Positions 30,734 through 54,413 of a stretch of DNA of 64,000 bases are shown here, in pieces. Where the stretch lies: positions 19,313,001 through 19,377,000 of the forward strand of contig NC_090782.1 in NCBI RefSeq assembly GCF_040054535.1, written 5' to 3'. The translations under genes and the position numbers were made by a program. This DNA is from Antennarius striatus. Its lineage: Eukaryota > Chordata > Actinopteri > Lophiiformes > Antennariidae. A model generated the notes under the pieces. That model had not been told where the DNA came from. It searched no databases and saw nothing but the letters and a program-made list of their open reading frames with translations. Every line of letters begins with the position of its first letter. The first letter of the stretch is position 1.

Positions 30734-32441
30734 TCAAGTCTGGCTGTCAGTGCCATACGGGGTGAATTTGACACTGGTGGGCAGTTGAGCAATGATGTTT
30801 GCATCACCCATCAGTTGGGCAAACACATGGTTGTCCGACATCATATCAGAGTAAAACAGGTTAGTTTGTGGCAAAGTAGTCAAATTAACGCTAGTCCTGC
30901 TGCCTTTCCTGTATAAACGGAGTAACCGATGAAACAGAGACTTCCTGAGGAGGATATAGATCCAGGGGTCAAGGATGGGGTTAACAGAGGCTATCCGGAT
31001 TGCAGCCAGGTCAGCATCGGGGTCATTTTTCAGCATGAAGCTGTTGGCAAACACTCTGACCTAAAAGAAAATAAAAACTACAGTTCAGATATCCATGCTG
31101 TATATAGTAGTTTGAAACGTTGCAGTATCATCATATATGCATATTATATACTGAAGAAAAAAATTTTGCTCCATTGTTTTAGTGGTTTCCCCAAAATTAT
31201 GAAAATCTTCATTCACCCTGTAATAAAATGCTTCTCTTGTTCCAGTCTCTCTGGCTTATCAATATTAAAAACATGACCCTTGTCTGAGTTTGACTGTGTG
31301 TACAGTAATTCTTTTGACTCTCTTTTCACTGTGTTCTGAGATTGTAAAATTATCATTATTTAGAGAAATAACAGAACATATCAAACAAAAACAGACTGGT
31401 TTACAGGGTTTTGTTTGTTTGTTTGTTTGCTGAGAACAGAGTCTGCATGAAATATCATTGAATCCCTACAAATCGATGATGCAATTGGTGGAATTAGGCA
31501 AGCATTGTTTGTTTGTATCCTAATTACACAATCAGAGGATTATTCTGACTCTGACTCACCACAAGCGGGGCTGAACAAGCCAAGACCACCACAGATGTCA
31601 TCACTAAAACCGCCATCATCTGCGTCTCGGCGGCCGAGGACAGAGCCCTCCACCTCTCCCGGACACTGGCTCTGGTGACGGAACGCGTCACTGTCCTCTG
31701 CCGCATCAGCAGCAGCGCGCCGCACACCGCCAGGTTGAGCATGATGGTACCCAGGATGAGCAACAGGCTGACGCCGCCGTACAGGATGGAGTACGCGGCG
31801 GCAATCGGCTCGTTTGTCCTCCAGTCGATGAAGCACCATGTGCCGGATGGCTGCAGCTCACTCCCCGCCATGCCCATCATCGGGAGGGAACAGAAAAGAA
31901 TGTGACTGGTGTAAAGGAAGAGAAGAAGCCTTTGCGCAAAGCGCCGGTCCACCGCGCAGCGCTGATAGGTGTACGGGCAGCATATGGCCAAGTACCGCTC
32001 CGCTGCCATGGCGCAAATGATGCTCAGTCCCGCTAAACTGAAAAATAGCAACAAAAAGGAGAGAAACTCGCAAACATGTTGTTGTTCCAAAATGTTCTGG
32101 TCCAGATAGTTTGCTATAGTGAGCGGACTGGCCAGGCAGGTGCCCAGCAGATCCGTCACCGCCAGACCACAAACCAGCGTGTAGAAAGCCGAGGATTTTC
32201 TTTCCTGTTTTGATACTGAAAGAACAATTATTGCAATTAAATTCCCAATGGCGCCTCCAGCAAACATAAAAATAGGTAAGGCCATTGCTGTTTCTACTCT
32301 GGTCGTTTGTGCATGCTTAATAATCGTCTCGTTAACGGAAACAGATCCGTGCGTAAAGTTCGGGCTTTCCACTGTCAAATACTCCCACAAACTTGTATTA
32401 GGTGTCATGTCCTTCGGTTTGTTGTGGATTTCTGAATGCAT
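30734..32441 (-). CDS. ptger4: Prostaglandin E2 receptor EP4-like GPCR (possibly teleost ptger4c)
   Basis: This is a class A prostanoid receptor of the plasma membrane; EP4 couples PGE2 to Gs/cAMP. Two coding exons (31560-32441 and 30734-31060) give 402 aa. The intron falls at LV|VRVF at the end of TM6, the position known for PTGER4. EP4 hallmarks: FYTLVCGLAVTDLLGT (TM2), LLFFSLAGLSIICAMAAERY (TM3, ERY for DRY), GTWCFIDW in loop 2 with the TM3 partner Cys (HVCEFL), and AIRIASVNPILDPWIYILLR in TM7, whose Arg (residue 316) binds the prostanoid carboxylate. Three N-terminal N-glycosylation sequons (NTS, NFT, NET). Unusual: intracellular loop 3 and the cytoplasmic tail are much shorter than in mammalian EP4 (488 aa). 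A Met at residue 12 is an alternative start. The EP4 class is secure; the a/b/c paralog label is inferred. Confidence 0.92.
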
Positions 32442-32995
32442 TTCCTTCTCAAATCCTCGGAATAGATAGATGGGCCATCAGTTGTACTTTCTTGTAATCC
32501 AAATGTCGTTAATCACCGACTTCGTGATGCACATCTGGGAATTGGGAGGTGAGATGCTTCTAATATACTGACTGCCGAAAAAACTTAACAGGGATGAACG
32601 CCACGGGATCCTCTCTGAGACAAACAGAAATATCCACGTTTGGGTCTCCTTCAGTTACATGCCTCATTTGTCCATATTGACGTCATCGTCGCGTTGCGTA
32701 AATGCTGTGGTAGCTGTCAGGAAGATGACTGGGTTAAGACATGCAGTGCGTAAAAACGATTAGAGAGGAACAAGGGACTCTTCAGCAGTCTTTGGTCTAC
32801 CAGTTAAATATGAGTCATATTTAGATGCAGACACACATAAGTATAACAGCAAGTAAGGATCAGATTTCAGAAAGCTTCCAAGACACTAAAATAGATTTTG
32901 TCATAAAATAGTTTTCATCGACATCAATGCCTTTGTGCCATTTCACCCAAACTGAATGGAGACAGACATTTAAACAACCAGAAAGTGACAGGCTT

Positions 32996-52000: not shown

Positions 52001-54413
52001 TAATGAAGGGGAATGTTCAACCTGATAAATGATTTTTTGTTTTTGCTTATATATTTGGAAATGGATTGAAAAATGCACCATTGTGTCATCGGCAAATTTG
52101 AATGGGTAGTTTGTGTTGTGTGGAAACATACTAATCACTTTATTTGATCGCCAATAAAAAAAATAAATTTCGAAATCTTTCAAGTGTTGAAATAAGAAAT
52201 GGAATAAATATATTACATTTATTTGGTAATGACGTTATTCTTTGTACTAGATGGATAATATGACATCATCTCATATTTGTCAATATACACACTGATTTCA
52301 GACGGGTACATCAGCAACACATGCGTGGATGTTGACGATGAGGCATTCAAACCTAAAATGCCCCATTGTGACAAAACAGACATGTTCCCGCTGCCTCCCC
52401 CACCTCCAGACCCTCTACAGATGTTAAACCTGGAGTCCGCTGACAGAGACAGGTGCTGTGGATCACATTAATTTACTTTTTCTTGTACTATAATCACAGG
52501 AGGTACATTTCTTAGTTCCTCCTTCCTCTGATCCAACTAATATGTTGCATTTCCTCTCATCCCAGCATGCTTGAAGATTACGGTAAGTGATGACAATCCA
52601 TTTTAAAACCGATAGACAATGATTGAACTTCAACATTGTCCAAGAGAAATTGCTCGTAGCTCATGTGTCAAATCATTTGGTTTAAATTTGTACTGTTTTC
52701 AATTTTTTAAAACTCTTTTTCTTTGCTATTGTTATCATTAACAATGTCAAGAACACGAGTGCATTTTCATTTACAACATACTTTTTGTTTTATCCTAAGA
52801 TGGCTATGATGACGTTCAACTCATAGCTGAGGATTTCCCCCCTCCACCACCTGAAGTCAGGTATTTATTAATATTCAGCTCACTGAGGAAAGATGAAAAA
52901 AAGATACTGGAGATATTGACAGCTGCTAAATGCTATACACAGTGTGTGTGTGTGTGTGTGTGTGTGTGTGTGTGTGTGTGTGTGTGTGTGTGTGTGTGTG
53001 TGTGTGTGTGTGTGTGTGTGTGTGTGTGTGTGTGTGTGTGTGTGTGTGTGTGTGTGTGTGTGTGTGTGTGTGTGTGTATAGTATATACGTACAATGTATG
53101 TGTGTGAATTTCTTATTTCTTTAATGGTCGTTGATTAGCTACTAAATCAGAAATGATTTCTTCCAGCATAGATCCAAAAGTTGTGAACGAGCTGAGAAAA
53201 AGATTTAAGGTAAATAAATTTTATAGACTTTCTCCAGAATATTTGTTTTTTTTATATAATGGATAGAGTGTCATCAACATAGTGATGAAATCAAACATTC
53301 ATACAGTACTTTTGAGTGTTTCATACGTCCTGATGACCAGGACCAGCAAATAGGATTTATCAATTAATGATTGTTTTTTAGTATGATGGGCCCATCACTG
53401 TCCTGCACACCATGATGGTGGATCCTAATAGCATCATAAAGAAGCCAGGAGGGAAGGATCTGCATGTGACTCAGGGAGAAATCCTGGATGTCATCCATTT
53501 CACCAACAAAAAGGAAGCTCTCTGTCGCAACAAGTTTGGAAAATGTACGTTAACACTTCACATCTCTGTATGATGTATACCACTTCTGCAGCATATGAAA
53601 TACATGTAATTTTTGGAGTTGGCCAGCTTCAGAAACCTGTATTAAGATAAACCCGATCACTAGAATCCCACATAGACTCAGAGGCATGACTCACTAAAAG
53701 GAGTCTGAAACAAGTAGACAAGTGAACAAAAAAATAAAACAGGGAATACAGAACAACTAATATAACTTGAATTATTTGTAATTGTTACAAGTAGGATATA
53801 CAGTACAGTATAAGTGAATTTATTAAGTTTTAATTTGGTGACAATCACATTTTATGCCTTTACTCGGATTATTTTACATCAAGTTGTTGCTTTTGTCTCA
53901 CTTCTATAGATGGTTATGTGTCCAGAAGTCTTCTCATTCAAATGTAAGTCAATCCTCATTAGGTTAATACATCACAACATTAATTTATATGCTTTATGTC
54001 GCAAATAAATGATGGTGAAATCAACTTCCTCTTCAATGGTTAAACATGGACTTATTTACTTACTTCAGATTACCTTAGTATTTATGTATGCACATACAAT
54101 ATATTATATAAATATGGCTATCAGATCTGTCAAATTACAAAATTGTTGGACCAGTTTTTATACTTGTGACCCCACTTTTGACTTAATTTTAATTTTGACA
54201 AAACTTTAAATTCCACAAAATGCACACAAATAATAATTAACTCTTTTGCAGGGAAGGAGATATTTATGACGATGTTGAGTATGCAAGTGGTGAGCTATAT
54301 TTGCATCCTTGTGTAAATGCTTTGTGTAAATGCCATGCAAACTGTGGAAATTTATATTTGCCATTTTCTTTTCAGACATCTACGACAATGAATCTCCTCA
54401 TCCTAGCTACTAA
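46059..54413 (+). CDS. FYB/PRAM1-family adaptor with two helical SH3 domains
   Basis: A cytosolic adaptor related to FYB1 (ADAP), FYB2 and PRAM1, which link haematopoietic receptors to SKAP proteins and integrins. Exons: 46059-46061 (ATG only, inferred), 47796-48414, 48764-48872, 49192-49247, 49350-49384, 49669-49700, 50732-50861, 51413-51575, 52302-52452, 52566-52582, 52800-52860, 53167-53209, 53382-53544, 53910-53943, 54252-54289 and 54376-54413; 563 aa, all phases fit. Order: N-terminal VDVKALRARFNN motif, Pro-rich region, YESID, a basic helix (KKPKKDIRRQDQERKDQ), hSH3-1 (residues about 325-390: GGKLDLNVCQGETVEILRV, GGKWLA, YGYI), PPPPPDPL, YDDV, PPPPPEV, hSH3-2 (KYDGPITVLHTMMVDPN, GGKDLHVTQGEILDVI, LCRNKFGKYGYVSRS), then IYDDV and IYDNE. 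The second hSH3 looks closest to PRAM1; two hSH3 domains are FYB1-like. Family certain, exact ortholog not. Confidence 0.88.
47435..47535 (-). repeat. Dispersed teleost repeat fragment
   Basis: The reverse complement contains tgggaggaagccggagaac and acccacgcagacac-like strings of the repeat seen at 35340 and 51085. It lies in intron 1 of the FYB-like gene. The rest of that intron (46062-47434) shows nothing recognisable. Confidence 0.6.
47658..47702. repeat. (GT)n microsatellite next to an acceptor
   Basis: About 21 GT units end some 95 nt before the exon 2 acceptor (47795) of the FYB-like gene. Confidence 0.97.
50032..50090 (+). repeat. LINE 3' tail with (CTT)n
   Basis: taatttcccaatggggatta, then ataaagtgggc and a CTT run, in intron 6 of the FYB-like gene. 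The CTT run is the target of the insertion that follows. Confidence 0.65.
50091..50615 (+). pseudogene. Poly(A)-ended retrocopy of unknown origin
   Basis: The roughly 525-bp insert ends in 17 A's (50599-50615) placed 10 nt after an ATTAAA signal (50583). It is flanked by TTC/CTT repeats on both sides (50071-50090 and 50616-50636), as expected for retroposition with target duplication. An ORF of 123 codons (50117-50488) contains KWQLLNLISGEAKLAIYVTR and NIWCHKNVLCTSVDDQLTLA. I do not recognise the parent gene with confidence; it may be a piece of another transposable element's coding region. Confidence 0.6.
51085..51375 (+). repeat. Dispersed teleost repeat copy
   Basis: ggtacaccctagacagatca, cacactcacactcagagtca, caatttagagtgaccaactc and related strings match the repeat at 35340. 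It lies in intron 7 of the FYB-like gene and ends about 40 nt before the exon 8 acceptor. Confidence 0.7.
52941..53078. repeat. (GT)n microsatellite, about 138 bp
   Basis: About 69 uninterrupted GT units, the longest in the window, in intron 11 of the FYB-like gene (52861-53166), filling nearly half of it. Confidence 0.98.

Follow-up and report, generated by a model that had tools for sequence, protein, structure and literature searches.

A 64,000-nucleotide stretch of the Antennarius striatus genome, hereafter the window (NC_090782.1, or C7:19313001-19377000; no N; host genome 548 Mb, 42 contigs), contains a trio of genes: a prostaglandin receptor of the EP4 type on the minus strand, and a DAB gene with a PTB domain and a FYB gene with two hSH3 domains on the plus strand. 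The trio sits between TMEM38A/MED26/SLC35E1-type and PEX11/APBA-type genes. We consider it quite likely that it is a third paralogous PTGER4-DAB-FYB copy from the two rounds of vertebrate genome duplication (2R), on a segment of 19p13.11 type (PDE4C-type) whose sister would be the segment of 5p13 type.

Gene models of the trio

The EP4-like gene consists of two exons. The PDB ranking for its product starts with human EP4 (5.6e-84), followed by IP (5.3e-45), EP2 (6.4e-40) and DP (1e-36), and the receptor groups with the EP4s in a 10-row tree that contains outgroups. It is 54% identical to human EP4, 50% to the copy on contig C3 and 46% to that on C15, compared with 73 and 69% between human EP4 and these two. 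Residues T76, Y80, S103, T168, W169 and C170 of human EP4 have roles in the ligand pocket; all six are present in the window receptor and in C3, five in C15 and four in C18. The long C-terminal tail is absent: 68 amino acids (aa) follow the LLRK motif, versus 143 in C3 and 134 in C18. The product would be a Gs/cAMP receptor for prostaglandin E2 (PGE2), in which the short tail may lessen tail-dependent desensitisation. A long tetranucleotide repeat lies upstream of the gene, at 32995-33147. A pattern search of IMG/VR for stray fish contigs with EP4 gave one pattern match and no relative.

The four PTB exons of the DAB-like gene are colinear with DAB2 and, read by eye, have GT/AG ends. The best PDB match is DAB2 (1e-39; DAB1, 1.9e-35), and Pfam finds DAB2_SBM, the sulfatide-binding motif (4.5e-11), with the general PID models below their cut-offs; the downstream open frame at 45098-45490 has no Pfam match. 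The domain is altered at 28 of 81 positions that are invariant in four other DABs. In its C-terminal helix the phenylalanine of the DLF motif, which is needed for NPxY binding, is lost (EVC instead), and the YKAKL and HKQ stretches, which serve in PIP2 anchoring, are unchanged. The product may be a PIP2-anchored membrane adaptor with an altered cargo (peptide) groove. On the roles of PTB residues, the passages of PMC4985636 consulted say nothing about DAB.

The C-terminal hSH3 domain of the FYB-like gene (hSH3-C) is matched by Pfam at 1.2e-24 and by FYN-binding protein in PDB at 1.6e-10, and the N-terminal one (hSH3-N) by a human FYB1 query (E 0.003). All four script-checked junctions around the two domains are GT/AG (4/4), and the junction position inside each hSH3 is common to fyb1 of the same genome and, for the N-type domain, to fyb2. 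YDDV-type motifs, which act in SLP-76 binding, occur at ~52800 and ~54260. The motifs suggest an ADAP-type immune scaffold as the product. Long GT runs also lie inside the gene.

The preliminary description had named the three genes and their strands, and splice models, Pfam and PDB matches bear it out. The gene identities are confirmed as real, chance being excluded by the E-values together with the conserved exon structure. Retrocopies are ruled out: introns with GT/AG ends interrupt EP4, the PTB-coding part of DAB (four exons) and both hSH3 domains of FYB. The exons read give no sign of a pseudogene, and the joined EP4 frame is open across 402 aa.

Position of the window EP4 in the receptor trees

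The same genome holds four EP4-type copies, in the window and on C3, C15 and C18 (46-48% identity in the search), followed by IP/EP2-like genes at 37-38%. The 10-row tree has the form (C18,(window,(human,(C3,C15)))), with supports of 99/97 and 88/96, and an 8-row LG+G4 tree has the identical topology (97/96 and 96/98). An unrooted 5-row tree splits human+C3+C15 from window+C18 (91/92). C3 and C15 form a pair with supports of 81/88 in the 10-row set and 96/91 in a further EP4 set. Because it branches outside human EP4 and the fish ptger4 pair, the window EP4 would, with moderate support, predate the fish-tetrapod split.

An alternative is that the trio is a teleost-age copy, from the third, teleost duplication (3R) or a later segmental one, of the 5p13-type dab2-fyb1-ptger4 cluster, moved to 19p-type territory and evolving fast. 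The EP4 trees oppose it. Grouping the window copy with C3+C15 to the exclusion of human EP4 gives p-AU values of 0.036 (10-row), 0.047 (5-row) and 0.010 (8-row); pairing it with C3 gives p 0.018, 0.007 and 0.008 in the same sets, and pairing it with C15 gives 0.006 (5-row) and 0.037 (8-row). The 3R pair of ptger4 genes is, moreover, already represented by C3 and C15, both of them chromosomes with GDNF-like genes, and PTGER4C and PTGER4D have been reported from gar and coelacanth as additional EP4 subtypes (PMC6504862).

The 5p13-type and 1p-type segments lie elsewhere

On C15, prkaa1 (18.90 Mb) lies by EP4 (18.91 Mb), a MACPF gene (17.53 Mb) by dab2 (17.54 Mb), and fyb1 at 11.08 Mb, where a PDE6-like gene adjoins it (L033:2443-4713 (+); open frames, by eye). 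C3 carries the second ptger4 at 17.28 Mb. GDNF-like genes, identified by eye, are present on both ptger4 chromosomes (C15, 12.34 Mb; C3, 18.31 Mb). The 1p-type genes are found twice, as dab1 (4.48 Mb), fyb2 (4.52 Mb) and prkaa2 (4.53 Mb) on C7 and as dab1 (20.56 Mb), MACPF (20.57 Mb) and fyb2 (20.58 Mb) on C18. The C18 EP4, at 3.880 Mb, lies 4 kb from artemin (3.885 Mb; C18:3885043-3885312; PDB artemin 1.4e-27 versus neurturin 2e-21). Besides DAB1 and FYB2, the 1p-type segment in this fish would carry an EP4 next to artemin. C15 and its duplicate C3 make up the 5p13-type segment, C7:4.5 Mb and C18 make up the 1p-type one, and the window trio belongs to neither. Human chromosomes 5 and 1 carry DAB, PRKAA and C6/C8A pairs (PMC4995730).

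Genome-wide, both PRKAA loci (C7:4526499 and C15:18899098) adjoin a DAB or EP4 copy, and the 20 MACPF matches include C15:17532458 by dab2 and C18:20572805/20575916 by dab1. The GDNF family gives six matches (the C18 artemin, C3, C15, C8, C18:14.27 and a weak one on C11) and partly tracks the EP4 copies, with artemin beside the C18 EP4 and GDNF-like genes on the ptger4-bearing C3 and C15. Our literature search found no work on the evolution of this family.

A probable PDE4C near the window and the sister relation that it suggests

The PDE4 search gave 16 matches at seven loci. The window EP4 has one of them at 0.30 Mb and the C18 EP4 another, PDE4B, at 0.59 Mb; the PDE4 of C3 is 2.65 Mb away from the EP4 there, and C15 is without PDE4. 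When the seven loci are placed at random, 0.12% of draws (0.0012) put one within 0.6 Mb of at least two of the four EP4 genes; this radius was set once the distances were known. Among the four other 2R families probed (PDE4, MACPF, PRKAA and GDNF), one is near the window, and its member, at C7:19.64 Mb, is a probable PDE4C. In a tree of the seven loci with human PDE4C and PDE4D, it pairs with C18:15.87 (82/81) and human PDE4C joins the two (61/60). With PDE4D clearly represented once, by the C3 gene, and the other subtypes by pairs, PDE4C is the simplest assignment. The C18:3.29 gene scores best as PDE4B, and the C8/C16 pair is assigned to PDE4A solely by elimination.

All four teleosts in PMC2929239 have two PDE4B and two PDE4C genes, and three of the four have two PDE4A; the same source notes that some fish PDE4C records bear the label PDE4D and gives the topology (A,B)(C,D), with which our tree agrees (94/98). 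Human PDE4A and PDE4C map to 19p13.2 and 19p13.11, respectively (PMC11931042). EP4, DAB and PDE4 concur in making the 5-type and window-type segments sisters: the 1p-type EP4 and DAB fall outside, and among the PDE4 genes that of human 5q pairs with that of 19p13.11. Such agreement is to be expected if a 2R copy lies on a segment of PDE4C type, which would also explain a DAB2-like DAB that is no recent duplicate.

C7 and C18 share dab1, fyb2, PDE4B and PDE4C-type pairs, and the window EP4 might accordingly be a teleost duplicate of the 1p-type C18 EP4, the two contigs being a duplicate pair. That origin is very improbable. In the outgroup-containing sets (10-row and 8-row), the only ones in which a window+C18 grouping can be tested, it is rejected (p 0.007 in the 10-row set, and 0.0165); the window DAB with the dab1 pair is rejected as well (p 0.003), and the window neighbours are, on the human map, 19p-type and not 1p-type.

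What the DAB and FYB domains decide

The genome has four DAB copies: the window gene, dab2 on C15 and a dab1 pair (C7:4.48 and C18:20.56). In a PTB tree of 6 rows and 137 columns, where a long gap interrupts the dab1 row of C18, the window gene falls on the DAB2 side (100/100), and grouping it with the dab1 genes is rejected (p 0.003-0.005). Of 29 positions that discriminate DAB1 from DAB2, it agrees with DAB2 at 7 and with DAB1 at 3, and differs from both at the other 19.

A Pfam search of the genome for hSH3 finds two loci only, on C15 and in the window. The human FYB1 hSH3 query gives seven matches: two in the C15 fyb1, two in the window, C7:4517022 and C18:20583932, both at the place expected for FYB2, and a weak one on C12 (E 0.43). 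The window hSH3-N shares 39% with human FYB1, 36% with C15 fyb1 and 34-38% with FYB2, against references of 34-42% between FYB2 and FYB1 and 58% between human and fish FYB1; it is approximately equidistant from FYB1 and FYB2, and its distance from FYB1 is similar to that between FYB2 and FYB1. The hSH3-C is 50% identical to human FYB1 and 40% to C15.

Several results weigh against a 2R origin. Within the DAB2 side the window gene takes no firm position (37/0; branch 1.57), and pairings with C15 dab2 and with human DAB2 fit equally well. At 48-50% identity to DAB2 it is more diverged than DAB1 is from DAB2 (62-66%), and the window copy must therefore have evolved fast. The FYB hSH3 tree (8 rows, 83 columns) gives no firm grouping (32/0): pairing the window gene with C15 fyb1 is compatible with the data (p 0.24 for hSH3-N, 0.27 for hSH3-C), as is pairing it with fyb2 (p 0.48). 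Taken by themselves, DAB and FYB domains this short do not distinguish an old copy from a younger duplicate that evolved fast, the window proteins are long branches, and the fish sequences compared are all from teleosts. The 10-row EP4 set does not reject a pairing of the window copy with C15 alone (p 0.095). In the genome searches no PRKAA or MACPF match lies near the window, MACPF on C7 being confined to 25.8-26.0 Mb, and C7 has no GDNF-family match. The C7:19.64 PDE4 matches PDE4D best in PDB, then 4B, 4C and 4A, and the tree also admits a grouping of its pair with PDE4D (p 0.36).

The preliminary description had put the trio forward as a third ohnologous copy. The EP4 branching outside human+C3/C15 and the presence of the 5p13 and 1p types elsewhere support this in part, and the DAB and FYB trees do not decide it. 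The PTB and hSH3 trees it had proposed, built here from human and own-genome copies, dispose of a dab1 affinity and do not reject a dab2/fyb1 duplicate. This last result favours the teleost-age copy, as do the DAB2 affinity of the window DAB and the gene order, EP4 (-), DAB (+), FYB (+), which matches in families, order and relative orientation the human 5p13 FYB1-DAB2-PTGER4 cluster once flipped. Human 5p13 is unlike the window in its surroundings, with no MACPF (C6/C7/C9) or PRKAA match near the latter and flanks of 19p type. Weighed against the EP4 evidence, a teleost-age copy is unlikely. For the favoured 2R copy, we infer the date of DAB and FYB from their linkage to EP4. The clustering itself is most likely retained ancestry, with the three proteins acting separately.

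Relation to PRAM1

Human PRAM1, like the window FYB, belongs to this family and lies on 19p, in 19p13.2, the band of PEX11G. The FYB member of a 2R trio could be fish PRAM1, mammals having kept the cluster as PRAM1 alone, and neither Pfam nor the human FYB1 query found a further clear hSH3 locus in the genome. PRAM1 has one hSH3 domain versus two in the window gene, and may be a different 2R copy. It is PDE4A, not PDE4C, that lies at 19p13.2 (PMC11931042), and as PDE4A groups with PDE4B and PDE4C with PDE4D in the tree, PRAM1 would be the sister of FYB2 and not of the window gene. An HNRNPM probe, used as a marker of the PRAM1 neighbourhood, matched nowhere, controls included, and is uninformative. 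We give the PRAM1 identity nearly even chances. A fuller scheme is tentative, at somewhat less than even: a DAB3 and a FYB that is none of FYB1, FYB2 and PRAM1, kept with EP4 in the original order; an assignment of all four 2R segments, as sister pairs 1p+19p13.2 and 5p+19p13.11; and a DAB that has lost its NPxY groove and takes other cargo.

Flanking genes

The bounding genes had been described as of MED26, SLC35E1, TMEM38A, PEX11G and APBA3 type, and the Pfam families agree. Eight of ten flank open reading frames (ORFs) match MED26, TPT, TRIC, PEX11 or PID, one matches reverse transcriptase and one is without a match. The within-family names SLC35E1, TMEM38A, PEX11G and APBA3 are putative, and the flanks are of 19p type on the human map. 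The reverse-transcriptase remnant (7547-8104, minus strand; RVT_1 4.8e-18) lies between TMEM38A and MED26.

Table 1. Features of the window (positions from its first nucleotide; TM, transmembrane segment)
Feature	Position	Strand	Evidence
EP4-like exon 2 (TM7, short 68-aa tail)	30734..31060	-	splice model
EP4-like exon 1 (TM1-TM6)	31560..32441	-	splice model; Pfam 7tm_1 3.5e-28; PDB EP4
DAB-like PTB exon 1 (DAB2_SBM motif; 5' end tentative)	40069..40195	+	DAB2 colinearity, PDB, Pfam
DAB-like PTB exon 2	41259..41357	+	DAB2 colinearity, PDB
DAB-like PTB exon 3, strongly diverged	42101..42232	+	DAB2 colinearity, PDB
DAB-like PTB exon 4 (C-terminal helix, DLF to EVC)	43027..43116	+	DAB2 colinearity, alignment
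DAB-like tentative downstream exons	43232-43279, ~43374-43440, ~43865-43950, ~45113-45493	+	open frames and splice sites, by eye
FYB-like large proline-rich exon (ends tentative)	47794..48414	+	open frame; no Pfam match
FYB-like charged exon before hSH3-N (5' end tentative)	50732..50861	+	3' junction script-checked
FYB-like hSH3-N core exon	51413..51575	+	junctions; own-genome match
FYB-like hSH3-N end and proline stretch (3' end tentative)	52302..52420	+	5' junction checked
FYB-like YDDV motif exon (ends tentative)	52799..52860	+	sequence reading
FYB-like exon entering hSH3-C (5' end tentative)	53150..53209	+	3' junction checked
FYB-like hSH3-C core exon	53382..53544	+	Pfam hSH3; PDB; junctions
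FYB-like hSH3-C end (3' end tentative)	53910..53943	+	5' junction checked
FYB-like exon, final YDDV motif read (ends tentative)	54252..54289	+	sequence reading
TMEM38A-type flank, two TRIC ORFs	2457..3211	-	Pfam TRIC
MED26 flank	14514..16094	+	Pfam Med26_C 8.4e-83
SLC35E1-type flank	19399..24758; ORFs tested 19399-19953, 24387-24758	+	Pfam TPT, both
PEX11G-type flank exon	56327..56623	+	Pfam PEX11 6.7e-8
APBA3-type flank, two PID ORFs	62154..63682	+	Pfam PID, both

Known relatives and significance

The families of human 1p32 FYB2-DAB1 (with PRKAA2 and C8A/B) are those of the window, and this arrangement is found here at C7:4.5 and C18:20.6 Mb. It differs in that FYB2 matched the FYB1 query by a single hSH3, of N type, and the C18 EP4 has moved away to artemin. 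We know of no matching EP4 or DAB copy on human chromosome 19, and to our knowledge mammals keep at most the FYB part of the third DAB/FYB lineage, as PRAM1.

PTGER4C and PTGER4D resemble the window and C18 genes in being EP4-like, outside human-type EP4 and pre-teleost; the passages of PMC6504862 consulted describe no DAB/FYB neighbourhood for them, and either name may fit the window gene. Zebrafish EP4a, b and c are listed in PMC4726814, and zebrafish ptger4c is expressed in best4+ gut cells (PMC12724568, preprint); the 'PTGER4c' of PMC3077368 is a footnote mark and not a subtype. Among the open-access matches listed, none reports a third DAB, a third FYB or the cluster, and those for 'Dab3' are genes of the major histocompatibility complex. 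Extra EP4 subtypes are thus already in print (PMC6504862); new here, as far as the listed matches show, would be the third DAB and FYB lineage and the cluster.

A 2R trio at this locus would supply a missing part of a known paralogon (complement C6-C9, AMPK, DAB, FYB, PTGER4) and would point to the sister relations among the four 2R segments. The vertebrate gene set would gain a third DAB and FYB lineage, and work on PGE2 signalling, endocytosis and immune adaptors in fish would have to count the extra genes, which annotation may list as dab2-like and fyb-like.

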